64,000 bases of DNA from Maribellus sp. YY47 (GTDB taxonomy: Bacteria > Bacteroidota > Bacteroidia > Bacteroidales > Prolixibacteraceae): the NCBI RefSeq assembly GCF_023111095.1, contig NZ_JALGYW010000006.1, forward strand, positions 1-64,000, read 5' to 3'. A program made the position numbers and the translations under genes. Shown here in pieces: positions 36,794-51,189 of the stretch (position 1 is its first letter; every line of letters starts with the position of its first letter). The notes under the pieces are model-generated. The model worked only from the letters and a program-made list of their open reading frames with translations, searched no databases and was not told the origin of the DNA.

Positions 36794-38173
36794 ATGGAAT
36801 TACCTTTTGCAGAGTCGTACAGAATAAAAATGGTGGAACCCATTTACAGGAGTACCCGCGAACAGCGCGAGGAGTGGATAAAACAGGCACATTACAATTT
36901 ATTTAACCTTAAAAGTGAGCAGGTTTTTATCGACTTGCTTACCGATAGCGGAACCGGCGCCATGAGCCATAACCAGTGGGCTGCCATGATGACGGGGGAT
37001 GAAAGTTATGCCGGTTCGTCATCGTATTATCATCTGAAAAATGCCATCCGCGATATTTTGGGATTTGAGTATTTTCTTCCCACACATCAGGGGAGGGCAG
37101 CCGAAAATGTTTTGTTTTCGGTATTGGTAAAAGCCGGAGATGTAGTTCCCGGAAACAGTCATTTTGATACCACCAAAGGGCATATCGAATTCAGAAAGGC
37201 TTCGGCAATTGATTGTACTATTGATGAGGCTTTTGATACTGAATCGCTTCATCCGTTTAAAGGAAATGTCGATCTCAGAAAACTGGAGAGCGTTTATTCG
37301 TCGTACCACCAGGAGGAGATTCCGATGGTCATTGTAACGCTCACCTGCAATACTTCGGGTGGTCAGCCGGTTTCGATGCAGAATTTGAAAGATGTTTATG
37401 AGCTTTCCAAACGATACGGGATAAAAGTGGTATTCGACTCGGCACGTTTTGCTGAAAATGCCTGGTTTATAAAAGAAAGGGAGCCGGGATACGGCGATAA
37501 GTCGATTCGCGAAATTGTGGCTGAAATGTTTTCGTATGCCGATGCAATGACGATGAGCAGCAAGAAAGATGGCATTGTAAATATTGGTGGTTTTATTGCC
37601 ATGAAAGACGAGAAGCTGTTTCAAAATGCTTCGGTTTTCAATATTATGTACGAAGGCTTTAATACATACGGAGGAATGGCAGGCCGCGATATGAATGCTC
37701 TTTCTGTAGGTTTGAATGAAGTAACCGACGATCATTACCTGGAGAACCGCGTTAAACAGGTAGAGTATCTGGGAAACAGGTTGATTGGGTGGGGAATTCC
37801 GGTTCAGAAGCCGATTGGCGGACATGCGGTGTTTGTGGATGCCCGCAAGTTTTTGAAACATGTCCCGAAAGAAGAATATGTAGCGCAGACCTTGGCAATA
37901 GAGCTTTATTTGGAAGCCGGCGTGCGCGGTGTTGAAGTAGGAACATTGTTGGCTGACCGTGATCCTAAAACCGGTGAAAACCGTTACCCAAAACTTGAAA
38001 TGTTACGACTGGCGATTCCTCGACGCGCATACACCAACAATCACATGGACGTGGTGGCTGTGGCACTCAAGAACATTTTCGACCGCAGGGAAAAGATCAC
38101 TCACGGGTTTAAAATTGAAAAAGAAGCGCCCATCATGCGGCACTTTACAGTTGAACTCGAAAGAATAGTATAA
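36794..38173 (+). CDS. tnaA: Tryptophanase
   Basis: 459 residues of the tryptophanase/tyrosine phenol-lyase family: DLLTDSGTGAMS, LPTHQGRAAEN, VFDSARFAENAWFIK and the PLP lysine in MSSKKDG (K258). Two specificity positions favour tryptophanase over tyrosine phenol-lyase. Aspartate 125 in SHFDTTKGH sits where the lyase has threonine. VEVG at 380-383 lacks the lyase's M-x-R residues. It splits L-tryptophan to indole, pyruvate and ammonia. No tryptophan permease follows. Confidence 0.93.
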   Translation: MELPFAESYRIKMVEPIYRSTREQREEWIKQAHYNLFNLKSEQVFIDLLTDSGTGAMSHNQWAAMMTGDESYAGSSSYYHLKNAIRDILGFEYFLPTHQGRAAENVLFSVLVKAGDVVPGNSHFDTTKGHIEFRKASAIDCTIDEAFDTESLHPFKGNVDLRKLESVYSSYHQEEIPMVIVTLTCNTSGGQPVSMQNLKDVYELSKRYGIKVVFDSARFAENAWFIKEREPGYGDKSIREIVAEMFSYADAMTMSSKKDGIVNIGGFIAMKDEKLFQNASVFNIMYEGFNTYGGMAGRDMNALSVGLNEVTDDHYLENRVKQVEYLGNRLIGWGIPVQKPIGGHAVFVDARKFLKHVPKEEYVAQTLAIELYLEAGVRGVEVGTLLADRDPKTGENRYPKLEMLRLAIPRRAYTNNHMDVVAVALKNIFDRREKITHGFKIEKEAPIMRHFTVELERIV

Positions 38174-38176
38174 CAA

Positions 38177-40690
38177 CTAACTTTTAATGGCATGTTCTTC
38201 AATGAATTCGTTGAAGTTCATGCCAAAGTTTTCTCCCATACTTTTCTTGTAACGCGAGCAGAAAGACTCGAACTGGAATTTGGCCAGATGAACGTTATTA
38301 ACTTGTTGATGTGCCCAAACTTGCAAAAAAACAGCTTCTTCGCTTAGTTCGTCGTAGTCGAGCATGCGCTGGGCAACCTTTTCGACTTCATGAATACGGT
38401 TCTCTTTTTGCAGAAATGTGGCCAGCTTTAACAGGTTGTCCATTACCTGGTTGCCAATGAATCCGCGAATATCGTCGAGCCAGGGCCAGTCAATCCCTTT
38501 TAAAAGGCTTCCGTTTTTCACCAGTAAATAAAAGCTGTCAAGCTGCTGGCGGTTCATCCCTTCCGGGATCATGCATAACTTAAAGGCCTCGAGGTAATCA
38601 CAACTAAAGCTTCCGGTAGTTTTAATCTGTAAAAAGCCGTTGTTTAATACCACTTCAACGCTGTCGAGCAGAAGAAGTAATTTCCTTAATTTATTGAGCG
38701 TTACCGCACGGTTGTTCGCGATTTTGCGGGTCTGGATTCCTTCCCATAAGATCGAATCTACTTCGGCAATGGGAACACCCATTTTATTTCGTGCCGATCC
38801 GATGAGAATGAAAACAAACAGTTCCTTTACTTTGGGCGTAAACAAGCTGGTGATATCCTCTCCTTTTGTGTCGAGCGCCATAAACTCTCCAAAAAGGCGA
38901 ATGTGATTCGTTGCGGCGGTTTTGGGCGTTTCCAGTCCGCGGTAATGTTTTTTAGAGGTTTTCCGGGTAATAATCAACCAGGTAAGAAGGGCTAGAAATA
39001 ACAAAGTCATTCCGATGAACCCAATGTATAGCGGCCGTATAAGGCTTTCGTCTTTCTTATCCCGTTCTGGCAGAGCAAGAATTTCTTCATCCAAGGCCAA
39101 ACGGTTAATTTCCTCGTTTCCTAAAGGACGGTTCCATATGTTTAGATTGTCGATATAACCACGCATACTTGCACCGTCGGAGAGCGCGCTTCCAATATGT
39201 AAGTCGCTTGTTCCCGAGTAGGGAGGATGTCCGTCTGACCCGCCAACATTTTTCCCGTTCAGAAAAATAGCTTGTTGACCGGTTTCGATAATATAGCGCC
39301 AGGTAAGATGGTACCAAACATTGTTCTTCAGTACTTCTTCCGACATGAAGTCGTTCGACCATAAGCCAAAATACGGATGTCCGGACCGCAAAACGAGGTG
39401 CATCCCACGGCGGTAACCCTGCTCGTTGTTTCCGAGGATGGCATTGTCGCCAAATTCAAGAATATCAGTGAATTTTACAAAGCAACTAACGGTGAAACTG
39501 CTGTTTTGCAAGCCATACAGTCCCGGCTCTCCAATCAGGATATTAGCGTTTTCAGGAAGCTTAAGTACAGTTCCCCGGTCGATGTCCTGGCTAAAAGAGT
39601 AATTGGTTCCTGTATAATCTCTGTCCGGATTTACGTTGTCAGTTAAGTTCCCGTCGAAGTTGAACTTGGCTGTCAGTCCCTGGTTCAGGTTAAGGGGAGA
39701 GGCCAGGATCGAATATTCTTCGGGTAAGGCCATTTCAGCCGTCACAATTATTTGAGAAGGAGTCATGTTGTACCCCGGAGCAAAGGGAGACAGGATCATT
39801 TCTTCTCCTCCACGGATCGGAAAACTGAATTTCCCTCCGGAAATCAGTATCTCGGGATTTTTCCAGTAAACCCGTTCCAGGTTTTTTCCCACTGTCCGGA
39901 CTTGTCCTTTTATATCGTTAAAAGAGTTGAGCTGCGCTATAAGAAAATCGAAACTCATAACGGTATTGCCAACGCTGATAAAATTAGGTTTCTTGCCGTA
40001 TTTGGTCCAGCTGTCGAGCAGAAAGTTCACATAATCCGGGACCTGGTTTTTCCCCAGCTTGTTAGACACAACGCCTGTTGGGAGGTTCTCAAAATCATTG
40101 ATTTTAAAAAGTTCCTTGTTAATGTTTGATTCCGAGCTTAGTATAACCGAGTTCGGCGTAATCTGGCTTGCCGATATTTCCAGCGCGTAGTTTTTAATAG
40201 GGTGAAGGATTCTGCTCTCGTTGGTAATGTTGCCATCTACGAAAAAAATTACCCGGCGATTCGCCTGTACCAAATAATTGGTTGACGGCCATGTTTCTCC
40301 CTGAGGTAAAAAGAAAATACGGTCGGAAATAGAAGAAGCATTAATGACAGAATCCAAAAAGTGAATATTCCCGTCGAAATGTATAAAAACCGGAACAATT
40401 TTCGATTCTTTGTTGTCGATTATACTTCGTATTTTGGCCAGAACAGTTGTCAGCTCCAGGGTGCTGTTCTGAATATAGGCATAGCGCTCTGTCGATTCAA
40501 TATCCAGTTCAATTCCCACCCAATCTCTGGATTCGATAAAATCCCATAAACGGCTATTGGAGAAATCGTTGTTGGCGATTTGGGCAATAAGATAGGTATT
40601 GTCTGCAAATTCAGAAGCTTGGGTTGGAGTAGTCAAAAACATACTCATCCAAACAAAAATAACTCCCCAAAAACAGCCCGTTTTGTTCAT
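38177..40690 (-). CDS. Transmembrane one-component regulator: PLC-like + LamG sensor, SARP-type wHTH output
   Basis: 837 residues. A signal peptide (1-26) is followed by a region (about 28-170) with PLC/PI-phosphodiesterase-like strands: DWVGIELDIES, KIVPVFIHFDG, GETWPSTNYLVQANRRVIFF. A LamG/concanavalin-type beta domain follows (about 338-535, with GYIDNLNIWNRPL), then one membrane helix (553-576). The cytoplasmic part starts with a winged helix resembling SARP/OmpR regulators (597-690: IRLFGEFMALDTKG, VDSILWEG, RAVTLNKLRKLL). It ends in a helical BTAD-like segment (700-825). It should read an extracytoplasmic ligand, perhaps glycan, and act on DNA directly. It diverges from the cytochrome-SUMF1 operon, its likely target. 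Confidence 0.75.
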   Translation of the reverse strand: MNKTGCFWGVIFVWMSMFLTTPTQASEFADNTYLIAQIANNDFSNSRLWDFIESRDWVGIELDIESTERYAYIQNSTLELTTVLAKIRSIIDNKESKIVPVFIHFDGNIHFLDSVINASSISDRIFFLPQGETWPSTNYLVQANRRVIFFVDGNITNESRILHPIKNYALEISASQITPNSVILSSESNINKELFKINDFENLPTGVVSNKLGKNQVPDYVNFLLDSWTKYGKKPNFISVGNTVMSFDFLIAQLNSFNDIKGQVRTVGKNLERVYWKNPEILISGGKFSFPIRGGEEMILSPFAPGYNMTPSQIIVTAEMALPEEYSILASPLNLNQGLTAKFNFDGNLTDNVNPDRDYTGTNYSFSQDIDRGTVLKLPENANILIGEPGLYGLQNSSFTVSCFVKFTDILEFGDNAILGNNEQGYRRGMHLVLRSGHPYFGLWSNDFMSEEVLKNNVWYHLTWRYIIETGQQAIFLNGKNVGGSDGHPPYSGTSDLHIGSALSDGASMRGYIDNLNIWNRPLGNEEINRLALDEEILALPERDKKDESLIRPLYIGFIGMTLLFLALLTWLIITRKTSKKHYRGLETPKTAATNHIRLFGEFMALDTKGEDITSLFTPKVKELFVFILIGSARNKMGVPIAEVDSILWEGIQTRKIANNRAVTLNKLRKLLLLLDSVEVVLNNGFLQIKTTGSFSCDYLEAFKLCMIPEGMNRQQLDSFYLLVKNGSLLKGIDWPWLDDIRGFIGNQVMDNLLKLATFLQKENRIHEVEKVAQRMLDYDELSEEAVFLQVWAHQQVNNVHLAKFQFESFCSRYKKSMGENFGMNFNEFIEEHAIKS

Positions 40691-40920
40691 TTCAGCCTTA
40701 AATAGTTCCTTAATTTGCTATTATTTTCTCCTCAAATATATCAAAAATGAATAGAATGAAAATATTTCATGAGAAAAGTTTGGAATTTATAATCTATTTT
40801 ATTTCAGAATATTGTAAAAAAAATTAAGATTAAATTAAGAGGTGTTTAAGTAGTCGATGAGGTTTTGGTTAATACTGTGCTAATAGCACGCACTTATCTT
40901 GTGCATCTTTTAAATTCAGG
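40691..40920. promoter_or_regulatory. Divergent promoter region with inverted repeats
   Basis: 230 bp, strongly AT-rich, between the LamG-SARP regulator and the cytochrome-SUMF1 gene. Near the forward gene it has GTGCT-AAT-AGCAC (40877-40889) and immediately after it GCAC-N7-GTGC. The shared GTGC/GCAC arms make this a plausible operator, which is inference. Confidence 0.45.
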
Positions 40921-42441
40921 ATGACAGATAAGACAATCAAACGAAGGCACTACCTTATTTTTATAGCAGGAGGATTAAGCGTTATCCTTTTTATTTTGTT
41001 ATTCAATAAAACGGTTGAATATACTTCCAGCAACGAATTTTGTAACAGTTGCCATATTCATACCCATGCCGAAGCGAGTTGGAGGTTATCGGTTCATAAC
41101 AATACATCAAGTGGAGTTTCGGTAAAATGTGTCGATTGTCACTTACCGCCTGAAGATCAAACAGCCTATTTTCTATCCCGGAAAGCATATCATGGAGCAC
41201 ACGATCTTTATGTATATCTAACTAAGGATGCAGATGAGATTGATTGGCAGGCAAAACGATCAAACGATGCAGCTAAGCGATTTGTGTATGAAGACGGATG
41301 TTTAAAGTGTCACACCAATCTGTTTCCTTCCACTTTGAGTAGTCAGGGAGGACAACAGCATCTAAAATACATTCGTAACCCTCAGAGCAGCTCTTGTTTG
41401 CAGTGCCATCACGAAATGGGGCATTACCGTGGAGAGCAGTCTGGATTTGCTGATGAGGAGAGTGAAACACCCAAAGAGGTTTTCAAGGAACTTACGGTTG
41501 TAAATGATTTTAAAACTTTTGAAGAAAAGATTCCGGGAACAGCGGTTTCGTTTAAAATGATTGCGGTTCCGGGAGGAACATTTAAAATGGGCAGCCCGCA
41601 GGATGAACCTTATCGACGAAACGATGAAGGACCGGTGCGTGAAGTGGCCGTTGATAGTTTGTGGATGGCTGAAATTGAAGTTTCGTGGGACGAATACCTG
41701 GCCTTTTTCTCTGCAACAAGTTCTCAGGGAAGAAAGGAAGCCGTTGAATTGGACGAGGAAACCGATGGTGTATCGGGAGCAACACCGCCCTGGGGAGCGC
41801 CCGATCAGGGCTGGGGAAAAGGAAGCCGCCCCGCAATAACCATGAGTCACCATGCTGCCGAAACCTACTGCCGCTGGTTGAGCCAGGTTACCGGAAGAAA
41901 ATACCGTCTGCCCACTGAAGCAGAATGGGAATATGCTGCGCGAGGCGGCACACAGACTCCCTATTTCTTTGAAGGTTCTCCGAAAGATTATGAAGCCGAT
42001 GGTTTCCTGAAAAAATTGCTGGGCGCCAATACCGGGTTATTTAGCCAATATGTGGTTTGGAACGGAAACAGCCCCGGAAAAACACAACAACCCGATGTGG
42101 TGGAAAGCAATCCTTTTGGTCTGAAAAATATGCTGGGGAATGTGGCTGAATTCTGTCTCGACTACTACGATCCTTCGGTGTACGGAAAATATCCGAAAGG
42201 TGTAATCCGTAATCCACGGGGGCCACGAAGTGGCAGCGAACATGTAGTTCGCGGAGGGTCGTTCCAAAATACACCAAAAGATTTGAGGGTTGCCCGGCGT
42301 GATTTTACCAGAACCACCGACTGGCTGGTAACGGATCCGCAGATTCCGAAAAGTATCTGGTGGTATTCCGATGTAAAAAGCGTCGGGTTTAGGGTGATTT
42401 GCGAGTATCATCCGGAAGAACTTAAAAACACAGAAAAATAA
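40921..42441 (+). CDS. NapC/NirT-like tetraheme cytochrome fused to a SUMF1 (FGE-like) domain
   Basis: 506 residues. One N-terminal membrane helix (11-29) anchors a cytochrome part with four CxxCH heme sites (41-45, 70-74, 127-131, 159-163), as in NapC/NirT quinol dehydrogenases. From about 210 to 495 runs a SUMF1 domain: IAVPGGTFKMGS, RLPTEAEWEYAARGG (329-343), GNVAEFCLDYY, HVVRGGSF (441-448) and SVGFRVIC. The two catalytic cysteines of formylglycine-generating enzymes should follow the VRGGS motif and are absent, so sulfatase activation is unlikely. Its location is the periplasmic face. It is the first gene of the operon with the Tat oxidoreductase. Confidence 0.88.
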   Translation: MTDKTIKRRHYLIFIAGGLSVILFILLFNKTVEYTSSNEFCNSCHIHTHAEASWRLSVHNNTSSGVSVKCVDCHLPPEDQTAYFLSRKAYHGAHDLYVYLTKDADEIDWQAKRSNDAAKRFVYEDGCLKCHTNLFPSTLSSQGGQQHLKYIRNPQSSSCLQCHHEMGHYRGEQSGFADEESETPKEVFKELTVVNDFKTFEEKIPGTAVSFKMIAVPGGTFKMGSPQDEPYRRNDEGPVREVAVDSLWMAEIEVSWDEYLAFFSATSSQGRKEAVELDEETDGVSGATPPWGAPDQGWGKGSRPAITMSHHAAETYCRWLSQVTGRKYRLPTEAEWEYAARGGTQTPYFFEGSPKDYEADGFLKKLLGANTGLFSQYVVWNGNSPGKTQQPDVVESNPFGLKNMLGNVAEFCLDYYDPSVYGKYPKGVIRNPRGPRSGSEHVVRGGSFQNTPKDLRVARRDFTRTTDWLVTDPQIPKSIWWYSDVKSVGFRVICEYHPEELKNTEK

Positions 42442-42452
42442 AAAGATCAACC

Positions 42453-43793
42453 ATGGATAAGAATCAACTATCACGAAGGAATTTTCTTGGGAAATCGGCC
42501 ATTATTGGGGCGGCCGGTGTAATCGGGATGAGTGCACTCAGCTCTTGTTCCGGGAAAACCAAAGCGGTTGATTATGAATTTCCGCCTTTGCTCGATCAGG
42601 CACCTGATGGGAAGCCGTTAAAAGCAGGTCTGGTGGGTTGTGGAAACCGCGGAACAGGCGCGGCACTTAACTTTCTGGCGGCTGGCAACGATTTGCATTT
42701 GGTCGCTTTGGCCGATGTTTTTGAAGATAAAGTGTGGGACTGCCGGAATAAGTTGATGAAACAACGGGTTGAAGTTCCTGAACAGAATTGTTTTTGGGGC
42801 TTTGATGCTTACAAAGAATTGTTGGCGCTGGATCTCGATGTGGTAATTCTGGCAACGCCACCGCATTTCAGACCGATGCATTTCGATGCTGCCATTCAGG
42901 CAAAAAAGAATGTATTTCTCGAGAAACCGGTTTGCGTTGATCCGGTGGGAGCCCGGCAAATTATAGCCACGGCTAAAAAGGCGGAGAACATGGGATTAAC
43001 TGTAATCACCGGAACGCAGCGGCGTCATCAGCGCGATTACCTGGAAACCTACAAACAGGTTGCCGGAGGTGCCATTGGCGATTTGGTTGCGGCAAAAGCT
43101 TTCTGGATGCAGTCGCACGTTTGGTTTCGTACCCGTGAAGAAGGCTGGAGCGACATGGAATACATGCTGCGCAACTGGAATAATTTCTGCTGGCTTTGTG
43201 GCGATCATATCCTGGATACGCATGTTCATAACATTGATATCATAAACTGGTTTATGGGAAAACATCCGGAAGAGGCGGTCGGTTTTGGGGGCCGCGCTCA
43301 CCGGTTGACCGGCGACCAGTACGACTATTTTTCCATTGATTTTGATTTCGGAAACGGTGTTTTTTCGCACAGTTTTTCCCGGCAGGTGGATGGATGTGCC
43401 AATCAGCTGGGCGAATTGATAATGGGTACCGAAGGCTACACCAACTGTAAAAACACAATTTACAATCCGGACGGATCGGTGAAGTGGACCTATGAATATC
43501 CGAAAGATAAAGATGGCCGCTCAACCGGTGTAGTGAAAGTTTCTCCATACGTTCAGGAGCATATCCATCTGGTTACAGCTATCCGTACAAATGCTCCTGT
43601 AGTGGAAGCTGAGCGTACTGCTATTTCAACGTTAACGGCAATTATGGGGAGAACTGCAGCTTATACCGGGCAGAAAGTGACCTGGGATGAGATGATGACA
43701 TCGAATATGAAATTAGGTCCCGAGAAATATGAAATGGGACCGGTGGATATGGAATTTCCGGTGCCTGTGCCCGGAACTGCGCATAAAGCTTAA
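42453..43793 (+). CDS. Tat-exported Gfo/Idh/MocA-family oxidoreductase lipoprotein
   Basis: 446 residues. The signal has the twin-arginine motif SRRNFLGKSA and a lipobox ending LSSC (C32), so it is a folded, cofactor-loaded, lipid-anchored periplasmic enzyme. The Rossmann motif is GLVGCGNRGTGAA, the EKP motif is FLEKPVC, and the second domain has DTHVHNIDIINWFMG. Exported members carry tightly bound NAD(P) and oxidise or epimerise sugars. It starts 11 bp after the cytochrome-SUMF1 gene, which suggests electron exchange or a shared substrate. Confidence 0.93.
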   Translation: MDKNQLSRRNFLGKSAIIGAAGVIGMSALSSCSGKTKAVDYEFPPLLDQAPDGKPLKAGLVGCGNRGTGAALNFLAAGNDLHLVALADVFEDKVWDCRNKLMKQRVEVPEQNCFWGFDAYKELLALDLDVVILATPPHFRPMHFDAAIQAKKNVFLEKPVCVDPVGARQIIATAKKAENMGLTVITGTQRRHQRDYLETYKQVAGGAIGDLVAAKAFWMQSHVWFRTREEGWSDMEYMLRNWNNFCWLCGDHILDTHVHNIDIINWFMGKHPEEAVGFGGRAHRLTGDQYDYFSIDFDFGNGVFSHSFSRQVDGCANQLGELIMGTEGYTNCKNTIYNPDGSVKWTYEYPKDKDGRSTGVVKVSPYVQEHIHLVTAIRTNAPVVEAERTAISTLTAIMGRTAAYTGQKVTWDEMMTSNMKLGPEKYEMGPVDMEFPVPVPGTAHKA

Positions 43794-43804
43794 AAACGAT
43801 AAGT

Positions 43805-44779
43805 ATGATTTCCGTAGTTATACCACTTTACAACGAAAGCATTTTGGTTGACCGTCTTTTGGAAGCAGTAACCCAAAATGTGAGGGCGCTAAATGAGCCC
43901 TTCGAGGTGGTGTGTGTCGACGACGGAAGTACAGATGAAACGCTGGCCAAATTGCTACAGTTCAGAAAGGAAGTTCCGGAGGTAAAAGTGATTTCGCTGT
44001 CGAGAAACTTTGGCTTACAGGCTGCAATTACCGTCGGGCTGGAATATGCCAAGGGCGGGAAAGTAATCATCATGGACGGTGATCTGCAGGATCCGCCTGA
44101 ATTGATTCCGGAGCTACTTCAAAAAATGGAAGAAACAAACTGTGATGTTGTTTCTGCAGTGCGTAACAAACGGATGGAGAGTTTTACCAAGCGTTTCTAT
44201 ATTAAGGTTTTTCATAAAATATTTGCCAGTATTTCTGAAGGCAATCAGGTGGAGCAAAGTGGGAATTTTTGCCTGTTAAACCGCAAAGCCGTGAATTCGA
44301 TTCTGGCTTTTTCGGAACGTAACCGGTATTTCCCGGGCATCCGGAATTTTATCGGATTTCAGCACGAGTTTGTAGTATACGACCGGGCCGATCGTGTCGA
44401 AGGAAAAGCTAAGATGACTACCAGAAAATTATTCTCGCTGGCTGCCGATGCGATTTATTCCTTCTCGAAATGGCCGATAAAAGCCTGCCTTTATTTGGGC
44501 TTGCTGGGCGTTGTTGTTTTCCTGCTTGCCATTGTTTATACGCTGGTCTCGAAATTTACCGGACTGGCACCTTTCGGATGGTCTTCCACATTCTTGGCCA
44601 TCAGCTTTTTTGGCTCAGTGCAGCTTACTTTCCTGGGCTTAATCGGCGAATACATTTTTCGCATTTATAAGGAAGTTCAACGACGGCCGGTTTACCTGGT
44701 GAAACAGGTTTTCGGCGATACTGAAAACGACCATGAAGTCAATAGTAAAATAAATCCAACAAAAAGATCTGATGCATAA
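43805..44779 (+). CDS. GtrB/DPM1-like polyprenyl-phosphate glycosyltransferase (GT2)
   Basis: 324 residues. The GT-A domain has VVCVDDGSTDET (nucleotide-sugar DDGS), MDGDLQDPPELIP (metal-binding) and FPGIRNFIGFQ. Two C-terminal membrane helices follow (about 220-300). Such enzymes move glucose, mannose or aminoarabinose-type sugars from a nucleotide to undecaprenyl phosphate on the cytosolic face. It precedes and overlaps by 8 bp a GT-C membrane glycosyltransferase, the usual pairing for moving the sugar onto a periplasmic acceptor. Confidence 0.9.
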   Translation: MISVVIPLYNESILVDRLLEAVTQNVRALNEPFEVVCVDDGSTDETLAKLLQFRKEVPEVKVISLSRNFGLQAAITVGLEYAKGGKVIIMDGDLQDPPELIPELLQKMEETNCDVVSAVRNKRMESFTKRFYIKVFHKIFASISEGNQVEQSGNFCLLNRKAVNSILAFSERNRYFPGIRNFIGFQHEFVVYDRADRVEGKAKMTTRKLFSLAADAIYSFSKWPIKACLYLGLLGVVVFLLAIVYTLVSKFTGLAPFGWSSTFLAISFFGSVQLTFLGLIGEYIFRIYKEVQRRPVYLVKQVFGDTENDHEVNSKINPTKRSDA

Positions 44780-46724
44780 TACATCCAAAATATTCACTGC
44801 ACGCAATGTGTTTGTCCTTAGCCTGGTTTTGGCTGGGGCAATACTGGCATTGCTGGCTCCAAAAGCTGCGGTGAATGTGGATGAAATGCTGCACTATCCT
44901 CACGCTCAAAAAGTAGTCGAGTGGTACTATACGGGCGGTAAGGATGTATCGTGTATGGAAACTCCGGTTACCAATTTGAAATATTACGGGCAATCGGTTG
45001 ACAATTTCACGGCCTTGTTTAATCGTATATTCTCCATCGAAAACGAATTTCTCACCCGGCATTTTACCGGTGCTTTCTTCTTTTGGTTGTTGCTCTTGGT
45101 GGCGGGACTACTGGGAAAAGAGATCAGTGGCTCATTCTGGGTTGCGGCACTTGTGGTGCTTTCGCTGATGGTAACACCGCGTCTTTTCGGTCAGGCCTTT
45201 GGTAACCTGAAAGATATTCCCTTTGCCACCGGATATGTAGCCGGTATACTTTTTATCATACGTTTTCTGAAAGCGTTGCCTCAACCGAAATGGAGAACCG
45301 CAATTCTGTTGGGGTTAAGCATCGCATTTACTTGTTCGGTGCGCATTGGCGGGCTCATTCTCTTTGCGTATTTGGGAGTGGGCTTACTCGCTATCTTGTT
45401 TGTAAAGCCTTTTTTACTTAAATATTTTATTTCAACTAAATCTTGTTTTGTGAGGCTGACGGGCCAGTTGTTAGTAATAGCGGTTTCCGGTTATTTTATC
45501 GGGCTGTTATTCTGGCCCTTTGCCTTGCAGGATGTCTGGCGTCACCCGCTCGAAAGTCTTTCGGTGATGGAACACTACAAAGTGAGCATCAAGCAGATTT
45601 TTGAAGGATCGGCGGTCTGGAGTTCGCAATTGCCGTGGAATTACCTGCCACGCTGGTTTTGGATAACAACACCCGAATTTGTTTTACTGGGCTTGATATA
45701 TTTTATCGCCTTTTTAACCTATATGTTTACTAAACTATTTAACGAACAACTCTTTTTAGAGTTGTTCGTGTTTTTTACACTTGCCTTTCCTGTTTTCTAT
45801 GTAATTATAATTAAATCGAATTTGTACAGCGGAATTCGTCAAATGCTGTTTGTTGTTCCGGTTATGATTGTTCTGAGTTCACTCGGTTTTTATAAGATGA
45901 TTCGTTCACAAAAAAAAACGGGACGTAAAATTCCATACCTGTTGCTTTTCTTTGGTTTAATGGTATTGCCGATAGTGCATCAGGCCAGTACTTTTCCGGT
46001 TGATTATGTTTATTTCAACCATGTGAATGGCGGGAATAAAAAGGCCTGGAGCAATTACGAATACGACTACTATTTTCATGGGATGAAGGAAGCGACCGAT
46101 TATCTTTTAACTGAAATTGGCGATAAAAATGCTGTGGTGGCGATGAATTGCCAGTTGCCCAATTATTTCGAAAAGGTACCTAATGTTTCGTTTCAGTATA
46201 CCCGCTATCTTGAGCGAAGTTCAGCCGACTGGGATTACGCTTTGTTTGGTGTTAACTACATTCATCCCTGGCAGTTGAAACATGATACCTGGCAGTCGGC
46301 AAAAATCAAAAAAGTATTTTACCACAAGGGAAATCCATTGGTGGTATTACTCGAAAGAGGAGATAAAAAGGATCTTCGCGGAATACAAGCCGTTAAAAAC
46401 GGTAAGTGGGAAGAAGGCGAGGATTTATTAAAAAAAGCATTTGAAGTTGAGCCAAACAATGTTTGGATCTGTGTAAATTTGGCGAATCTTAATTTAGCCC
46501 GGAGAAATTTTGCAGAAGTGGATGATTGGCTTCAAAAGGGAAGGGCAATACATCCGTTTTACGAACCGTTGTATTTGATCGAAGCACAAAAATTTTACGA
46601 TCAGGGGGAATACGAAAAAAGTATGACGGTTCTCGAAAAGCTGATTGAGGTCAATCCCCGGTATTTAAATGCCGGCCCGTTATTGAAGAAAGTAAAAGAA
46701 AAAATAAGTATAAAACAGAATTAA
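44772..46724 (+). CDS. GT-C membrane glycosyltransferase with C-terminal TPR
   Basis: 650 residues. About 11-12 membrane helices (to residue 410) follow an early periplasmic loop with VNVDEMLHYPHA, the D-E pair expected as catalytic site of GT39/ArnT-type enzymes. A soluble periplasmic domain and then tetratricopeptide-like helices (about 540-640: KNGKWEEGEDLLKKAFEVEPN) end the protein. It likely uses the polyprenyl-phosphate sugar made by the preceding enzyme to glycosylate lipid, protein or polysaccharide. The acceptor is unknown. Confidence 0.8.
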   Translation: MHNTSKIFTARNVFVLSLVLAGAILALLAPKAAVNVDEMLHYPHAQKVVEWYYTGGKDVSCMETPVTNLKYYGQSVDNFTALFNRIFSIENEFLTRHFTGAFFFWLLLLVAGLLGKEISGSFWVAALVVLSLMVTPRLFGQAFGNLKDIPFATGYVAGILFIIRFLKALPQPKWRTAILLGLSIAFTCSVRIGGLILFAYLGVGLLAILFVKPFLLKYFISTKSCFVRLTGQLLVIAVSGYFIGLLFWPFALQDVWRHPLESLSVMEHYKVSIKQIFEGSAVWSSQLPWNYLPRWFWITTPEFVLLGLIYFIAFLTYMFTKLFNEQLFLELFVFFTLAFPVFYVIIIKSNLYSGIRQMLFVVPVMIVLSSLGFYKMIRSQKKTGRKIPYLLLFFGLMVLPIVHQASTFPVDYVYFNHVNGGNKKAWSNYEYDYYFHGMKEATDYLLTEIGDKNAVVAMNCQLPNYFEKVPNVSFQYTRYLERSSADWDYALFGVNYIHPWQLKHDTWQSAKIKKVFYHKGNPLVVLLERGDKKDLRGIQAVKNGKWEEGEDLLKKAFEVEPNNVWICVNLANLNLARRNFAEVDDWLQKGRAIHPFYEPLYLIEAQKFYDQGEYEKSMTVLEKLIEVNPRYLNAGPLLKKVKEKISIKQN

Positions 46725-46736
46725 AAAACGTTGAAA

Positions 46737-46979
46737 ATGAAAAGAGTAATTGCATTGATCGGATTGTTTATGATGAGTTTGCCCACTTTGTTAATGGCCC
46801 AGGAACAGGGAACTTACATTGAAAACCTGGGAGCTCAGGACAGTTCTTATATGGATGAGGGATTAGTTACTTCCACTCAGCAATCATCGGGTTCAAATTC
46901 AACCGTAATTATTGTGATTGTGGTTGTGGTAATTGTGGCTGCTGTTGCGTTTTTCCTGTTGAAGAAAAAGAAAAAGTAA
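46737..46979 (+). CDS. Small secreted membrane-anchored protein
   Basis: 80 residues. A signal peptide (MKRVIALIGLFMMSLPTLLMA) is followed by a 35-residue polar Ser/Thr/Gln-rich stretch. A C-terminal helix made almost only of Val/Ile/Ala follows, ending in a run of lysines. It is single-pass with a short exported part that could itself be glycosylated. The start is at ATG 46737 (a TTG lies two codons before). It closes the operon; no family recognised. Confidence 0.7.
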   Translation: MKRVIALIGLFMMSLPTLLMAQEQGTYIENLGAQDSSYMDEGLVTSTQQSSGSNSTVIIVIVVVVIVAAVAFFLLKKKKK

Positions 46980-50259: not shown

Positions 50260-51189
50260 CTATGCTTCAAACGAATCTACCTTACGGTAAGCTTCAATAA
50301 GGGCCAGTTCGCCTTCTTTTCCACCAATGCTTTTTCCATGTTCGCAACACAAGGTCCCGTTGTAACCTTTATCGTAAATGTGTTTGAATATATTTTTGTA
50401 GTTGATCTCTCCGGTAGTAGGTTCTTTTCTGCCCGGATTATCGCCAATGTGGAAAGCTCCGATATAATCCCAACAAAGATCAATGTTCATAATCAGGTTT
50501 CCTTCAGTAATTTGCTGATGGTACATGTCGTCCACAATTTTGCAGCTCGGATGATTTACGGCAACGCAAATCATTTTTGCCTGCGACATTTTAGTTAGGA
50601 AAAGTCGTGGATGATCTACCTGATGATTCAGCGGTTCAAGAACCAGTTCCAATCCTGTTTTGCCGGCAATTTCACAGCAGGCACGCATGTTTTCAACAAC
50701 ATTGAGGGTTTGGTAATCCCAGTCCATCTTTTCGTCGTAAATTCCCGGAGTGATCAGCCCGGTCTTAGCACCGGTTCTTTTCTGAACTTCAACAGCTTCG
50801 GCTGTTTTTGTTTGCAGTAACTTTCGGACTTCCGGATCGTTGGTTACCATGTATTTAGCCCCATGATCAGCATAAACGATAAACGGACCCAAATCCAATC
50901 CGAGTCGGGCCAGCTCGTTCGCAATTTTTTCCTGCATTTCAGGTGTTCTGCCGGCCAGGCCATTGTCGAAAACTGCCCGGAAGCCCTGATCGGCAATGAA
51001 TTTAATGTTTTCAATCGGATCGTTTCCTACATGGTTACTGAACATGCCAAGCCCCGGAGCATACTTTAATTTGAATTTTGCAGCATTCGAACTTTCGGCG
51101 GCTGTCGCAGAAGTGCCTAACATGGTGCCCAGGCCACTCAAAGCTATACTACTGGCGGCAGTGTTCTTGATAAAGTTTCTTCTTTTCAT
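50260..51189 (-). CDS. Tat-exported hydroxypyruvate isomerase-like TIM-barrel protein
   Basis: 309 residues. A twin-arginine type start MKRRNFIKNTAAS with an Ala-rich signal (to about 31) is followed by an AP-endonuclease-2/xylose isomerase-like barrel. VLEPLNHQVDHP, HIGDNPGRKEPTTGEINY and CCEHGKS follow the hydroxypyruvate isomerase pattern with the metal-binding Glu, Asp and His. The substrate is probably a sugar or sugar acid. Export through Tat fits other Bacteroidota sugar isomerases/epimerases of this group. Single-gene unit. Confidence 0.85.
   Translation of the reverse strand: MKRRNFIKNTAASSIALSGLGTMLGTSATAAESSNAAKFKLKYAPGLGMFSNHVGNDPIENIKFIADQGFRAVFDNGLAGRTPEMQEKIANELARLGLDLGPFIVYADHGAKYMVTNDPEVRKLLQTKTAEAVEVQKRTGAKTGLITPGIYDEKMDWDYQTLNVVENMRACCEIAGKTGLELVLEPLNHQVDHPRLFLTKMSQAKMICVAVNHPSCKIVDDMYHQQITEGNLIMNIDLCWDYIGAFHIGDNPGRKEPTTGEINYKNIFKHIYDKGYNGTLCCEHGKSIGGKEGELALIEAYRKVDSFEA

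Follow-up and report, generated by a model that had tools for sequence, protein, structure and literature searches.

We analysed a stretch of 64,000 nucleotides from Maribellus sp. YY47 (assembly GCF_023111095.1, contig NZ_JALGYW010000006.1, positions 1-64,000 of the forward strand; hereafter the window), which contains a locus of six open reading frames (ORFs) that we call REG, CYT, GFO, GTRB, GTC, and tiny. CYT encodes a tetrahaem cytochrome domain fused to a SUMF1 domain, and GFO encodes an exported Gfo/Idh/MocA protein. These two genes are the conserved core of the locus, while the regulator gene REG and the glycosyltransferase genes are additions of one sub-type. We tentatively propose, with a confidence that falls a little short of even, that the core is a sugar oxidoreductase of the periplasm, linked to the respiratory chain through nicotinamide adenine dinucleotide (NAD) on GFO, covalent flavin mononucleotide (FMN) on SUMF1, the haems, and menaquinone, and that in the window lineage it is controlled by REG and coupled to the glycosyltransferases.

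In the proposed mechanism, GFO would be exported folded by the twin-arginine translocation (Tat) pathway with NAD tightly bound, and it would be anchored as a lipoprotein. It would oxidise a sugar or glycoside at one of its hydroxyl groups, most probably that at C3, and the electrons would move to an FMN attached by ApbE to the SUMF1 domain of CYT, at Thr288 of the motif DGVSGAT. The FMN could then pass electrons one at a time to the NrfH-like tetrahaem domain, and this domain would reduce menaquinone. A Tat-exported TIM-barrel protein encoded at 50260-51189 (P0011) might then isomerise or beta-eliminate the oxo-sugar. In the window lineage, REG would control the module through 11-bp-spaced repeats before CYT, and the module would be coupled to the lipid-linked-sugar synthase GTRB and the GT-C transferase GTC.

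The CYT-GFO core and its conservation

CYT (40921..42441, + strand) matched the Pfam families Cytochrom_NNT (PF03264; E 5e-26, 91.9 bits against a cut-off of 24.1) and FGE-sulfatase, or SUMF1 (E 3e-41), and it has four CxxCH motifs, as expected of the haem-SUMF1 fusion described in an initial annotation of this DNA. The same four motifs were found in 59 of 60 CYT ORFs, and the remaining one is a split gene. The predicted structure places a membrane anchor at the N-terminus (helix 4-35), and CYT thus combines the domain, the anchor, and the four haem motifs of the NapC/NirT/NrfH family. Plain NrfH or NapC was rejected as a name for CYT, since its scores fall under the NCBIfam cut-offs (73.4 bits against 134.2 for the NrfH equivalog TIGR03153). 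The SUMF1 fold of the model is nearest to PvdO and to the formylglycine-generating enzyme (FGE).

GFO (42453..43793, + strand) matched GFO_IDH_MocA (PF01408; E 8e-14, 52.8 bits against a cut-off of 24). In 44 rows chosen across phyla, the residues R8, R9, and F11 of the Tat signal were found in every row, as were G62, G64, R66, and Asp88 and also E157, K158, H259, and D262; P159 was found in 43. We take the EK(P) motif and the D/H pair to be the catalytic residues of Gfo/Idh/MocA enzymes, and Asp88 after strand 2 is presumably the sign of an NAD-type cofactor. A lipobox-like Cys32 is present in 28 of 28 rows of the tetrahaem group. The GFO domain, the Tat signal, and this cysteine agree with the Tat-exported lipoprotein of the initial annotation. 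The GFO model (predicted local distance difference test score, pLDDT, 89) matched sugar/inositol dehydrogenases, glucose-fructose oxidoreductase (GFOR), and DgpA at 15-20% identity. With 33.8 bits against a cut-off of 750, GFO was rejected as a BT_2158 glycoside 3-dehydrogenase.

CYT and GFO are 11 bp apart, as are GFO and GTRB; GTRB and GTC overlap by 8 bp, and 12 bp separate GTC from tiny. REG is divergent from CYT across a 230-bp intergenic region. The layout, strands, and spacing of the initial annotation match these ORF coordinates exactly. To follow the locus in relatives, we searched 101 genomes, including its own, for CYT at E 1e-30 or better. CYT was matched in 61 of them and in 36 of 37 genomes of the window's genus, and 31 of these 36 had at least two match rows. 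We fetched 60 CYT loci, 58 of them with a full-length CYT. GFO lies directly beside CYT in 55 of the 58; the others are L050 and L053, at contig ends, and L085, which is a true exception. A divergent REG together with GFO, GTRB, and GTC accompanies CYT in 20 of the 60 loci, which are all 20 fetched loci of the window sub-type, and co-occurrence in relatives, which the initial annotation had set as a test, was thus observed. REG adjoins CYT in 25 loci (20 divergent, 5 on the same strand), GTRB and GTC occur without REG in three, and REG, GTRB, and GTC were all unseen within the fetched stretch in 32. Because these three genes are confined to part of the CYT loci, CYT-GFO forms the core, and the other genes are features of one sub-type. 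The initial annotation had treated the six genes as one system. This idea is ruled out by the CYT-GFO loci without the remaining genes, and conversely one genome (L181) keeps REG-GFO-GTRB-GTC-tiny and has lost CYT from the locus. Searched with a fusion profile at E 1e-100, 295 other genomes across the phylum, few of them of the same order, contained no tetrahaem-SUMF1 fusion.

The Maribellus genome also has a second CYT-GFO pair (L038:7554-10488, contig C43), which is 49% identical to that of the window and has neither REG nor glycosyltransferases. This pair is divergent from a phosphoribosyltransferase/zinc-ribbon (ComF-like) gene, a position that is kept in several genomes of the genus.

SUMF1 relatives and the predicted flavin link

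A scan of named genomes gave at least 519 relatives, of which the best 80 were kept; 78 loci were usable after ORF selection. The tetrahaem fusion was found in 17 of these best 80 loci, all from Bacteroidota by their titles and including Parabacteroides and Tannerella, and the closest one among them is from a Mariniphaga metagenome-assembled genome (62%). In the remaining relatives, SUMF1 has no NrfH part. Pairs of SUMF1 and Gfo that lack the tetrahaem domain were found in six phyla (Bacteroidota, Rhodothermota, Balneolota, Planctomycetota, Verrucomicrobiota, and Acidobacteriota). In 51 of the 78 loci, Gfo immediately neighbours SUMF1: 16 of 17 NrfH-type, 34 of 54 haem-free, and 1 of 7 PSCyt1-type loci, the last being seven loci in which SUMF1 is fused to another haem domain, PSCyt1. 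In a tree of 94 SUMF1 rows, the NrfH fusions form one clade (100/100) with no PSCyt1 proteins inside, and therefore the two haem domains were probably joined to this SUMF1 fold independently; the PSCyt1 labels on the tree are unsure, as the start of L161 and of L174 coincides with a contig edge, so that an N-terminal haem domain may be missing from them.

Extracytosolic proteins receive FMN from ApbE (PMC8238504), and a flavinylation motif, D-x-x-[S/T]-G-A-[S/T], is given in section 8 of PMC12052999. DGVSGAT of CYT (residues 282-288) fits this canonical motif, with Thr288 at its end. The recurrent neighbours in the named-genome loci are a TIM-barrel protein (25 loci) and ApbE (20 loci). In 17 of 78 loci, ApbE is at most two genes away from SUMF1, against about 0.2% expected from 45 ApbE matches in 20 of these genomes, and in L129 it sits between SUMF1 and Gfo. 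The strict motif occurs in 11 of 1110 neighbourhood proteins, nine of which are SUMF1s. A relaxed form, D-x-x-[ST]-x-[AP]-[ST], was found in 64 of 79 SUMF1 ORFs (5.2 in shuffles) and was at chance elsewhere, in 1 of 79 Gfo proteins (2.5 in shuffles) and 25 of 907 other proteins (27.9). At the aligned motif position, 121 of 139 sequences have the relaxed form and 33 the canonical GA[ST] form; the canonical motif is present in 19 of 20 of the window sub-type. Two alignments, of 40 and 44 rows, had been chosen by hand from the 80 named-genome loci, and the relaxed motif was found in 40 of 40 rows of the former against 121 of 139 in the full set; the canonical motif is likewise rarer in the full set than in the rows aligned first.

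The content of whole genomes also bears on this link. FMN_bind is absent in 8 of 10 genomes with an operon ApbE against 3 of 10 whose locus has no ApbE (one-sided Fisher P 0.035, relatedness ignored). Three of these eight (G397, G402, G404) lack DUF2271 and DUF3570 too, and the single ApbE of G402 is by its coordinates the operon copy. In G398, G399, G400, G401, and G403, further ApbE copies are near or in frame with DUF2271 or DUF3570. We suggest, with slightly more reserve than for the module of the window, that the SUMF1 subfamily is a new ApbE-flavinylated class and that with a Tat-exported Gfo it forms a modular periplasmic NAD-FMN(-haem) sugar-oxidation chain over six phyla. The Bacteroidales would have added the tetrahaem quinone link, and one family the regulated coupling to glycan assembly. 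The flavin link and the wider SUMF1-Gfo family were overlooked in the initial annotation, as was the Tat-exported TIM-barrel partner in the window.

Several observations weigh against these proposals. The L181 locus does without CYT, and Gfo is beside PSCyt1 fusions in only one of seven loci. The motif loop DGVSGAT is disordered in the CYT model. Outside the window sub-type, just 9 of 56 tetrahaem fusions have the canonical motif, and 18 of 139 sequences, including the PSCyt1 fusions L116, L126, and L166, lack even the relaxed form. The SUMF1s adjacent to ApbE have a degenerate motif, with Pro for Ala and mostly a non-Gly residue. ApbE was found beside none of the 17 named tetrahaem loci, and the 60 fetched CYT loci contained one ApbE, about 8.5 kb from CYT (L050). 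G397, G401, and G404 each have one more ApbE for which no FMN_bind, DUF2271, or DUF3570 partner was found. The Maribellus genome encodes three ApbE proteins, all elsewhere, and thus ApbE is available to CYT. As a control, the other SUMF1 proteins of this genome were sought, and L005, the one ORF obtained from five loci, has no motif.

Two of the three apbE genes of Maribellus adjoin Gfo/Idh/MocA genes: L190:4962-12695 (contig C8) is ordered rhamnosidase, Gfo, ApbE, DUF6807, and Gfo, and in L189:8157-10496 (contig C55) ApbE is divergent from a Gfo. ORFs of at least 80 amino acids in the three fetched ApbE stretches of this genome contained no strict flavinylation motif. In Opitutales-type genomes (L138:2620-5452 and L142:8171-10987), SUMF1-PSCyt1 is divergent from ApbE with no Gfo within the fetched stretch, and it is possibly a flavin-haem protein without its dehydrogenase. 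In Maribacter and Zobellia (L121:2-7889, L122, L153, L164), a YceI-like gene comes directly after that for SUMF1. ApbE is downstream of the YceI-like gene in L121 and L164, and the next genes in L121, L122, and L153 are PSCyt1/PSCyt2/PSD1, DUF1501, and a second PSCyt1 gene.

Alternative explanations and direction of electron flow

SUMF1 of CYT shares the FGE fold, and it might be a sulfatase-activating formylglycine generator whose redox chemistry is served by the cytochrome. A sulfatase gene does directly precede SUMF1 in a verrucomicrobial operon (L129:875-5828; sulfatase, SUMF1, ApbE, and Gfo with few-base gaps). Despite this neighbour, a sulfatase-activating role is disfavoured because the FGE active-site Cys pair, which we take to be located after the GGS motif, is absent in 37 of the 38 sequences examined; two Cys within 14 residues after GGS/A/T were found in one. 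Moreover, the partner gene is Gfo and not a sulfatase in 51 of 78 loci, and another gene of the Maribellus genome fits the SUMF1 model much better (265 bits against 144). We regard this explanation as very improbable. Another possibility is that SUMF1 carries no flavin. The domain could do no more than bring GFO and the substrate together, or it could have its own metal-dependent chemistry, and electrons would go from NADH to haem directly or via a diffusible carrier. This is rather unlikely given that the association with ApbE is far above chance and that no other neighbour class carries the motif above chance.

The flow could also be opposite to that proposed, from menaquinol through the haems and FMN to bound NAD. 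GFO would then reduce a periplasmic oxo-sugar, for example in finishing or epimerising an envelope sugar used by GTC, for which mycobacterial DprE1/DprE2 provide a comparison. NapC/NrfH proteins usually oxidise quinol, which speaks against the oxidative direction, and in the 20 window-type loci GTRB and GTC are part of the operon. However, ketone reduction from menaquinol is uphill by redox potentials, and the operons of relatives include sugar-breaking genes (ThuA, 3-keto-disaccharide hydrolase, extra Gfo). On these grounds periplasmic quinone-linked sugar oxidation is favoured over reduction, and the opposite flow appears unlikely. The initial annotation had read the locus as quinone-linked periplasmic sugar oxidation (or reduction) together with surface glycosylation; the redox part remains as the likeliest core, of which REG and the glycosyltransferases are not indivisible parts. 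The oxidised sugar could be broken down, or it could be part of a glycan built by GTC.

The putative next enzyme, P0011 (50260..51189, - strand), is an AP_endonuc_2 protein with a Tat-like signal and an isomerase/epimerase-type TIM barrel, and it scored below every NCBIfam cut-off. It is 57% identical to a protein of L080 and 51% identical to one of L111, both of which are encoded directly after GFO, so that a homologue adjoins CYT-GFO in other genomes. Of the 78 loci, 24 encode a protein of this family no more than four genes from SUMF1, and in most of them it begins with a twin-arginine sequence. The TIM barrel is likewise the fold of a beta-eliminase that has been characterised on 3-oxo-glycosides (PMC10628242), and thus P0011 may be either an isomerase or an eliminase of the oxo-sugar.

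Respiratory periplasmic sugar dehydrogenases are already known as a kind, and to our knowledge a composition of the CYT-GFO type is not known from earlier work. LacABC-type systems consist of a flavin plus a cytochrome. Glucoside 3-dehydrogenase (LacABC) of Caulobacter and Agrobacterium is described in PMC9007349 as a three-component membrane-bound dehydrogenase for periplasmic glycoside 3-oxidation, with DUF1080, sugar-epimerase, and reductase genes nearby. The likeness to it is periplasmic sugar oxidation by a membrane-bound dehydrogenase; here, in contrast, the dehydrogenase is an NAD-type Gfo/Idh/MocA protein, the proposed covalent FMN is on SUMF1, and the haem protein is an NrfH-like fusion. 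The BT2156-2159-type 3-ketoglycoside pathway of Bacteroides contains Gfo, DUF1080, and TIM-barrel genes, and genes of these kinds also accompany CYT-GFO in relatives, but GFO of the window is far under the cut-off of the BT_2158 model, and we know of no haem protein in that pathway. GFOR of Zymomonas is Tat-exported with a tightly bound cofactor, which is recycled on a second sugar. It resembles GFO in fold (15% identity in the fold match), while here a gene for a redox partner adjoins GFO. ApbE-flavinylated proteins (NqrC, RnfG, NosR, DUF2271, DUF3570) share with members of the SUMF1 family an ApbE neighbour and the D-x-x-[S/T]-G-A-[S/T] motif, and likewise they link an extracytosolic redox enzyme to membrane electron pools. 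In the main texts searched on these proteins, 'sulfatase' and 'formylglycine' are absent and SUMF1 is not named among the substrates. Searches of open-access literature, which excludes most subscription papers, showed no paper in which SUMF1 is connected with ApbE, or NapC with both SUMF1 and Gfo/Idh/MocA.

Free NAD is not expected outside the cytoplasm, and NAD-type catalysis there is an open problem for Tat-exported Gfo/Idh/MocA proteins. If our proposal is true, a covalent flavin on the SUMF1 partner, wired to haems, would solve this problem. It would also assign a role to a large set of exported proteins that at present bear the name of the formylglycine-generating enzyme, add a new protein class to the ApbE substrates, and tie sugar oxidation directly to respiration.

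REG, glycosyltransferases, and neighbouring genes

REG (38177..40690, - strand) is predicted to have a signal peptide, an N-terminal region, a LamG domain (Laminin_G_3, E 1e-16), one transmembrane helix, and a winged-helix-like and helical C-terminus. It had been described as a LamG-SARP membrane regulator. The LamG domain and the transmembrane helix are consistent with this description, and the SARP label fared less well, as a Pfam scan (15 homologues) gave no Trans_reg_C or BTAD match. The C-terminus had four short matches to PDB sequences up to E 10, all at E 0.25 or worse, and its profile alignment with six OmpR-type winged helices of the same genome was in register but weak (P 0.001, probability 21%). 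The N-terminal region appeared phospholipase-C-like by eye, Pfam gave nothing usable, and we make no such claim. Judging from the LamG fold alone, a glycan is a candidate signal for REG.

Operator-like direct repeats, AATTAAG-N4-AATTAAG-N4-GTTTAAG with an 11-bp period, are upstream of CYT (40822..40850, + strand), and the triple pattern is unique to this site in the 5.04-Mb genome. SARP regulators have direct heptamers at 11-bp spacing in their target promoters, and such heptamers were found here. In 20 aligned REG-CYT intergenic regions, AATTAAG-N4-AATTAAG, often with a third half-site, is upstream of a TAnnTTG-like box; the heptamer pair is present in 16 of the 20 against 0.15 expected. TATCTTG (40895..40901, + strand), in this conserved block, resembles what we take to be the Bacteroidota -7 promoter consensus. 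The 26 REG-linked loci have a periodicity score of 3.23 for a spacing of 11 bp, against 2.1-2.4 for the nine other periods, and the 49 loci counted as REG-unlinked score 1.71 for 11 bp and 1.6-1.9 for the others; these repeat and periodicity counts are not independent because the loci are related. The unlinked locus L044 has the highest score of all (6). L078 was scored as unlinked although REG is present, and its upstream stretch is misplaced because its CYT is split. The repeats fit an OmpR/SARP-type regulator, a domain that is itself weakly recognised in REG. REG would bind them, and it is tied to the operon by these operator-like repeats, whose 11-bp periodicity follows REG across genera. 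Two REG paralogues in the Maribellus genome (G000:C11:62834-64618 and G000:C12:145806-146513) are 24-28% identical to REG and stand alone beside unrelated genes. REG-like regulators are thus a family in these bacteria.

The last three genes of the operon agree with their initial descriptions as a GtrB-like enzyme, a GT-C/TPR transferase, and a tiny membrane protein. GTRB (43805..44779, + strand) is a GT2 polyprenyl-phosphate sugar synthase-like enzyme that matched Glycos_transf_2 (E 5e-32) and was below the cut-off of the PgfS model (246 bits against 500). GTC (44772..46724, + strand) is a PMT-like GT-C transferase (PMT, 27.3 bits against a cut-off of 22.7) with C-terminal TPR. The tiny gene (46737..46979 from its ATG, + strand, with an alternative TTG start at 46731) encodes a signal peptide, a short Ser-rich stretch, a transmembrane helix, and a Lys tail, and it is present in 19 of the 20 window-type loci. 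The other flank of the locus has a tryptophanase gene (36794-38173; 850.6 bits, above the cut-off of 750), whose end is 3 bp away from that of REG, and 11 of the 20 window-type loci have a TnaA homologue next to the operon.

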